From assembly GCA_022447825.1 (NCBI GenBank), contig JAKUTY010000003.1:1-64000 (forward strand): a DNA stretch of 64,000 nucleotides, written 5' to 3'. The notes beneath the pieces were generated by a model. It had not been told where the DNA came from, searched no databases, and was given only the letters and a program-made list of their open reading frames with translations. This stretch comes from SAR202 cluster bacterium (lineage in GTDB: Bacteria; Chloroflexota; Dehalococcoidia; Lucifugimonadales; UBA826). Numbering within the stretch: the first letter of the stretch is position 1; the number at the start of each line of letters is the position of its first letter. The translations under genes and the position numbers were made by a program. Of the stretch, positions 32,130 to 34,673 are shown in pieces.

Positions 32130-32158
32130 TTGACAAAAAAAAACAGTCATAGTAGATT
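32130..32158 (+). promoter_or_regulatory. candidate promoter upstream of SAM riboswitch
   Basis: TTGACA at 32130-32135, 17-nt spacer, TAGATT at 32153-32158. Confidence 0.5.
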
Positions 32159-32203: not shown

Positions 32204-32287
32204 TCGTCAAGAGTGACAGGCGAGGCCCCAATCCTTAGACCCTGTCCGGCAACCTTAACCTTTAAGGTGCCTTTGGGGATTAGACGA
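32204..32287 (+). ncRNA. SAM riboswitch aptamer, S-box clan without P4 (SAM-IV or SAM-I/IV like)
   Basis: P1 TCGTC(32204-32208)/GACGA(32283-32287); P2 GACAGG(32215-32220)/CCTGTC(32241-32246); CCGGCAACC core; P3 ACCTTAA(32252-32258)/TTAAGGT(32262-32268) then GGTGCC; GGGGATT can pair with the CCCCAATCC P2 loop. Upstream of metY-metA. Confidence 0.85.
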
Positions 32288-32309
32288 GGTCTTATATGAC
32301 AAAGGGTAC

Positions 32310-32343
32310 GGCTCTATCCGTTTCCGGGAGAGCCTTTTTTTTT
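32310..32343 (+). terminator. intrinsic terminator of the riboswitch expression platform
   Basis: GGCTCT...AGAGCC with inner CCG/CGG pairs and TTTC loop, followed by nine T. Confidence 0.88.
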
Positions 32344-32373: not shown

Positions 32374-33705
<1,332 letters not shown>

Positions 33706-33757: not shown

Positions 33758-33779
33758 AAATTTGGAGAACAATGTATTA

Positions 33780-34673
33780 ATGACATTAATTATTAGGCCT
33801 GATTATCATGGTGTCCCATTTATTGAACAAAATAAAATCAGATGGATTCCCATTGAAAAAGCAGAACGTCAAGACATTAGGCCTTTAAGAATTGGAATAC
33901 TAAATATTATGCCGCTTGGCGAACAATATGAAATGAATCTATTGAACCCTTTAGGTTTATCAATTCTACAAATAGAACCAATTTGGATCAAACTCAAATC
34001 TCATGAATATAAAACTTGGTCTCAAGGTCATATTGACGAGTTATATCAAAGTTACGAAGAGGCTACAAAACATAAGCCCTTAGATGGATTAATTGTGACA
34101 GGAGCTCCTGTGGAACACTTGGATTACGAACAAGTAAATTACTGGCCTGAATTCAAAGAATTAATATCTGAAGCTACAAAAAGTATCCCTAGCACATTGG
34201 GATTATGTTGGGGTGGATTTGCATTAGCTTATTTGTTAGGAATTCCCAAAGAAAATTTCACGAAAAAACTTTTTGGAGTTTACGAATTAGAAAACTTATC
34301 ACCTTCTAATCCAATCATAGGGGCTTTAGATGATAAGTTTTTGTGCCCTCAAAGTAGATTTGCCGGGTTGCCGGACAAAGAAATGGAAAATGCTGCCAAT
34401 CAAAACATTATAAACTTATTAGCCTATGGTAAAGAATCTGGATACACTATTTTTGAAACACCTGATCACTCTCAAGTAATGCATATTGGTCATCCAGAAT
34501 ACAATGCAGGTCGACTAGCATTAGAGGCAAAAAGAGATCAATCAAATCCAAGTGTTCCGCCAATATCTAATTTTGACTTTGAAAATCCTACAAACCAATG
34601 GAGAATGCATAGAAATACATTTTTCCAACAATGGATACATTATATTTACACATCAATCAGCTTAAATGATTAA
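33780..34673 (+). CDS. metA: homoserine O-acyltransferase, MetA/HTS family
   Basis: RQDIRPLRIGILNIMPLGEQYEMNLLNPLG, VTGAPVEHLDYEQVNYW, LGLCWGG motifs. Confidence 0.92.
   Translation: MTLIIRPDYHGVPFIEQNKIRWIPIEKAERQDIRPLRIGILNIMPLGEQYEMNLLNPLGLSILQIEPIWIKLKSHEYKTWSQGHIDELYQSYEEATKHKPLDGLIVTGAPVEHLDYEQVNYWPEFKELISEATKSIPSTLGLCWGGFALAYLLGIPKENFTKKLFGVYELENLSPSNPIIGALDDKFLCPQSRFAGLPDKEMENAANQNIINLLAYGKESGYTIFETPDHSQVMHIGHPEYNAGRLALEAKRDQSNPSVPPISNFDFENPTNQWRMHRNTFFQQWIHYIYTSISLND

Follow-up and report, generated by a model that had tools for sequence, protein, structure and literature searches.

The window analyzed here, a stretch of 64,000 nucleotides, comes from a marine SAR202 bacterium (Chloroflexota). 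On its forward strand, to which the feature coordinates below refer, lie metY, encoding an O-acetylhomoserine sulfhydrylase (32383–33705; TIGR01326, 657 bits, cut-off 495), and metA, encoding a homoserine O-acyltransferase (33762–34673; 228.6 bits with NF047918 and 194.9 bits with TIGR01001, both below the family cut-offs). The leader 5' of metY-metA (32204–32343) very likely holds a SAM-clan riboswitch lacking P4 and then an intrinsic terminator, with SAM as the predicted ligand. The terminator consists of a stem-loop (32310–32334; −14.8 kcal/mol) and a T9 tract (32335–32343). A possible sigma-70-type promoter farther upstream (TTGACA-17-TAGATT, 32130–32158) agrees with the consensus at 10 of 12 positions, a weak match, as chance alone should produce one of this quality in the region.

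The aptamer opens with the 5' strand of P1 (UCGUC, 32204–32208), which pairs with the 3' strand (GACGA, 32283–32287) and has, at the positions numbered 6 and 88 in SAM-I, a G-C pair, as in the SAM-IV consensus. J1/2 (AAGAG, 32209–32213) contains, according to the Rfam alignment, the equivalent of the SAM-contacting G11, and is followed by P2 (32215–32246), made of a covarying P2a (GACAGG/CCUGUC) and P2b (GG/CC). P3 and the SAM-binding internal loop (GGCAACC...GGUGCC, 32248–32271) were recognized in both the Rfam and the homologue alignments. The stretch from P3 to P1 is without a P4 and provides the 3' strand (UUGGGG in J3/1, 32273–32278) of a first pseudoknot, PK-1, whose 5' strand is CCCCAA in L2 (32226–32231). 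Beyond P1 lies a short P5 hairpin (GUC-UUAUAU-GAC, 32289–32300), and a second pseudoknot, PK-2, joins ACCUUU in L3 (32258–32263) to AAGGGU (32302–32307). The preliminary description had already read P1, P2, P3, the CCGGCAACC/GGTGCC core, the missing P4, the GTC-TTATAT-GAC hairpin, the terminator and its nine T from this DNA, and all were found in place; it had overlooked that P5 and PK-2 belong to the aptamer, as well as a SAM-I-type kink-turn in P2, an anti-terminator competing with PK-2 and a second copy in the genome.

The P2 loop of the window opposes three nucleotides to six (CGA, 32221–32223, against UUAGAC, 32235–32240) with tandem GA, its letters giving a 3-nt bulge, then GA, with GA opposite. 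This arrangement is that of a SAM-I-type kink-turn, and would be expected to kink in three dimensions. Some of these GA letters have become UA in genus g22 and in the window genus's second copy, before a thrC paralogue, so that the kink-turn characterizes the main clade without being found in every element.

In a permissive cmscan of 401 bases, the highest Rfam score for the window element came from SAM-I/IV (RF01725; 44.9 bits, E=2.9e-6, cut-off 41.1). This stretch scored lower with SAM-IV (RF00634; 37.4 bits, 0.6 bit short of its gathering cut-off of 38) and with SAM-I (RF00162; 22.9 bits, cut-off 44.4). This comparison bears out the earlier proposal of a P4-less riboswitch of the SAM-IV or SAM-I/IV kind, as the classic SAM-I model with its P4 fell far under both others. 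The SAM-IV model passed its cut-off on two relatives at locus L047 (38.8 and 38.2 bits). Rfam's default gathering-threshold scan of the window reported nothing for the element, apparently a filter artefact, the speed filter dropping an element that scores above the cut-off. A PyrR binding-site match across the terminator (21.1 against 54 bits) was dismissed as chance. Elsewhere, in a same-order genome, an inverted repeat of 60 nt that is almost perfect (L002:347–406, minus strand) matched Rfam mir-4703 (39.4 against 88 bits); a long hairpin of this sort most likely resembles the model by chance.

Our covariance model R1, built from nine family copies and scoring the window at 130 bits, a value partly due to this construction, revealed copies in 21 of the 250 genomes of the order, spread over 12 of 97 genera. 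The window genome itself has a second copy on a different contig (33.6 bits with SAM-I/IV). Applied to samples of the class and phylum, R1 found almost nothing outside the order, and the three weak matches there (L082–L084) were classic SAM-I or canonical SAM-IV elements. A DNA pattern scan likewise identified the SAR202 cluster and related Dehalococcoidia/Chloroflexi as carriers; its matches in Omnitrophota, Riemerella and Bacteroidales were without an R1 match and were set aside as chance. Two matches at L052 and L058 (57 and 38.8 bits) were excluded from the claim on account of altered core letters, a lost PK-1 and a missing U tract. These distant relatives (1501–1612 in both loci) read CGACC and GGUGGGC in the core, have no AAGAG, PK-1 or U tract, and are either decayed copies or a variant for another ligand. 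Locus L047 holds two riboswitch copies 954 bases apart (1501–1613 and 2455–2567), each with a terminator and a paralogous unknown gene behind it.

The structure is conserved among these relatives and changes in a concerted manner, with covariation in P2, P5, PK-1 and PK-2. Paired letters filled 97% of the cells in the alignment of nine sequences, and none of 500 shuffles reached the covariation score, either with nine homologues or again with 32. Among the 32 sequences (29 distinct), both-sided changes occurred at 12 of 24 pairs, and P5 showed compensatory changes at four of four pairs across the 29 distinct relatives. The near-invariant P3 core adds little to this evidence. Permutation gave the same picture for the pseudoknots, each sequence's own L2:J3/1 pairing (PK-1) and own L3:tail pairing (PK-2) exceeding all 5000 permutations. 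Since kinship alone allows related sequences to beat shuffles, independent pair changes between clades are the stronger evidence: PK-1 appears as CCCCAA:UUGGGG in the window and elsewhere as CCCCAG:CUGGGG, CCUCAG:CUGAGG and CUGG:CCAG, and PK-2 as ACCUUU:AAGGGU in the window and elsewhere as ACUCU:AGGGU, ACCUCU:AGGGGU, AAUGU:ACAUU and UAUGUU:AACAUA, reduced to three contiguous pairs in the relative at L045. A pseudoknot with L2 had been anticipated in the preliminary description and does exist, but in the register CCCCAA with UUGGGG and not, as had been suggested, GGGGATT with AATCC; the AATCC:GGATT register is not conserved, as the second copy in the window genome illustrates (GGGAAATAAG).

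All 20 distinct main-clade elements have an intrinsic terminator immediately preceded by a hairpin of the type GGGUACGG/CCGUACUC, which recruits G letters from PK-2 together with a portion of the terminator stem. This putative anti-terminator overlaps both PK-2 and the terminator in its pairings and excludes each of them. Its mean z was −2.8 over 14 main-clade representatives; the window version (GGG.ACGG/CCGU.UCC, 32304–32325, pairing 32304–32311 with 32318–32325) ranks with the weakest of these hairpins, having 7 bp, a U.U mismatch, a z of −1.6 and a folding energy of −7.6 kcal/mol, compared with −14.8 kcal/mol in the terminator. SAM binding would stabilize PK-2, which would capture the GGG of GGGUACGG and so prevent the anti-terminator GGGUACGG/CCGUUUCC; the terminator could then form before metY, turning the operon off. 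Without SAM, the anti-terminator would form at the expense of PK-2 and keep the terminator from folding, leaving the operon to be transcribed. Off with SAM is the simplest reading and likely the way in which the switch works; control of metY-metA by the terminator, as initially proposed, fits the sequence evidence. Our analysis backs the fold at the level of secondary structure, shows that it is conserved and covaries, and also supports the mutually exclusive pairings and the gene context. Work by Trausch et al. in 2014 reportedly implicated PK-2 in the regulatory switching of SAM-I/IV; the arrangement described here would mean that PK-2 can compete directly with an anti-terminator. Genus g22 retains the terminator, and a search there for a local anti-terminator found none; the switch of this genus must therefore differ. 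Another candidate anti-terminator, made from J3/1-P1 (GGAUUAGA with UCUAUCC), was seen by eye in the window and given up for the local hairpin, the matching letters being missing in the second copy.

The genes downstream of the copies only partly share a methionine theme. Some copies lie 5' of an O-succinylhomoserine sulfhydrylase-type gene with metX, or of a methionine-aminotransferase-like gene. For several copies in other genera, the next genes have no obvious methionine link, which counts against our best explanation. Proteins without a Pfam match (e.g., MSPILRFAYDDSLWRFV... and TRWKDRIPERDKF...) are encoded directly 3' of riboswitch copies in several genera (L045, L047, L063, L039, L040, L043, L050 and L051), and these families are possibly linked to SAM or methionine. 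At L101:8149–9790, on contig C3, the second copy in the window genome is followed by a threonine-synthase (thrC) paralogue and then a MoaD/SAMP1-like protein, which has a GG close to its terminus; the better-scoring thrC of this genome is on C6. The pair may perhaps represent sulfur-carrier-dependent amino-acid synthesis under SAM control. In the sister genera g3 and g80, the regions upstream of the orthologous metY-metA operon (L094–L100) contained no SAM riboswitch; they have a Met/Cys-rich leader peptide ORF (e.g., MKPHELSQDYNIIFAHMMCCVMGSCMT and MNPHKLEQNDKVNCVHMMCVMMCCGMDCCLT) and then a terminator. This leader looks like ribosome-mediated attenuation sensing Met/Cys, and thus like a swap of regulators at one operon.

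By the anatomy readable in its letters, the element is of SAM-IV type, combining a P2 internal loop, PK-1, PK-2, P5 and a G-C pair at 6-88 with the lack of P4. SAM-IV is described as comprising P1, P2a, P2b, P3, P5, PK-1 and PK-2 (PMC6890682), and the likeness to the Rfam family extends to its P1 (consensus ggUC/GAcc, with G-C at 6-88), P2a and P2b with an internal loop, the P3 core, P5, both pseudoknots and the lack of P4. However, the P2 loop is 4 x 1 in the Rfam consensus and 3 x 6 with tandem GA in the window, and the window P5 is short in comparison. The SAM-IV P2 makes a four-nucleotide turn that differs from a kink (PMC6890682), and the canonical SAM-IV element found elsewhere in the phylum (L084) has no kink-turn. 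Because the 4 x 1 loop, a peripheral feature of the known members, is absent, we name the element SAM-IV-type and not plain SAM-IV. The leader probably functions as a SAM riboswitch and represents a lineage-specific variant, of SAM-IV type but with a kink-turn like that of SAM-I.

The top Rfam score, above its cut-off, would instead suggest a plain member of SAM-I/IV, with which the leader shares the core, P5, PK-2 and, in the Rfam consensus, the lack of P4. This assignment is unlikely: SAM-I/IV variants have been described without a P2 internal loop (PMC2864571) and PK-1 was missing from the class in a cryo-EM comparison (PMC6890682), whereas both are present and covary here; the consensus pair at P1 6-88 is A-U, as in the crystallised member, whose P4 is readable in its sequence (PMC5393176), and not the G-C of the window and SAM-IV; and relatives with a reportable SAM-clan match score best with SAM-IV. 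Somewhat less improbable, but still doubtful, is descent from a SAM-I riboswitch of this lineage by loss of P4 and secondary gain of P5 and PK-2, the likeness to SAM-IV being convergent. SAM-I (S box) has in common with the window element the core, PK-1 (L2 with J3/4), the P2 kink-turn and transcription termination, and in genomes of the same family mtnP is preceded by a classic SAM-I whose kink-turn is nearly identical (UGA x UUAGAC). Yet the low SAM-I score argues against such a descent, as do the SAM-IV-like G-C pair at 6-88 and the 12–16 bits that R1 gave to SAM-I copies, compared with 32 for a canonical Chloroflexota SAM-IV; SAM-I also differs in having P4, where the window has P5 and PK-2, and in switching through a P1-derived anti-terminator, where the window would use PK-2.

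The G-C pair could also be taken as a sign of altered ligand specificity (e.g., SAH), given that A6 and U88 are highly conserved in SAM-I (PMC3764141) and that G and C replace them in nine of nine model sequences and 27 of the 29 distinct relatives. We hold this to be very improbable, as the same pair stands in the Rfam SAM-IV consensus, the remaining core letters are kept and the downstream genes serve methionine synthesis. It is equally hard to credit that a constitutive terminator follows a merely vestigial aptamer fold: the window anti-terminator does contain a mismatch, but the outer pairs of this hairpin are kept through changed letters (CCGUUUCC versus CCGUACUC), the aptamer is conserved over 12 genera, and compensatory changes occur within the genus (L061, PK-1 UCCCAA:UUGGGA).

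A SAM-IV-type variant with a SAM-I-type kink-turn is the reading we prefer. Its kind is known and its mix of parts is new, as judged against the Rfam SAM-IV consensus and the published structure (PMC6890682). The Rfam default scan overlooks this putative methionine control in a deep-ocean lineage. The SAM-clan classes are distinguished by their peripheral parts and, to our knowledge, the common ancestry of the three classes is unsettled. As a tentative idea, to which we give less than even credence, the SAR202 element might bridge SAM-I (kink-turn and PK-1) and SAM-IV (P5/PK-2 and the P1 signature) in one RNA. If so, SAM-I and SAM-IV would share an ancestor or have swapped modules, and would not have arisen separately around one core. 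A mix of parts from two classes, kept in about a dozen genera, would make these riboswitches a natural test piece for the exchangeability of such parts.
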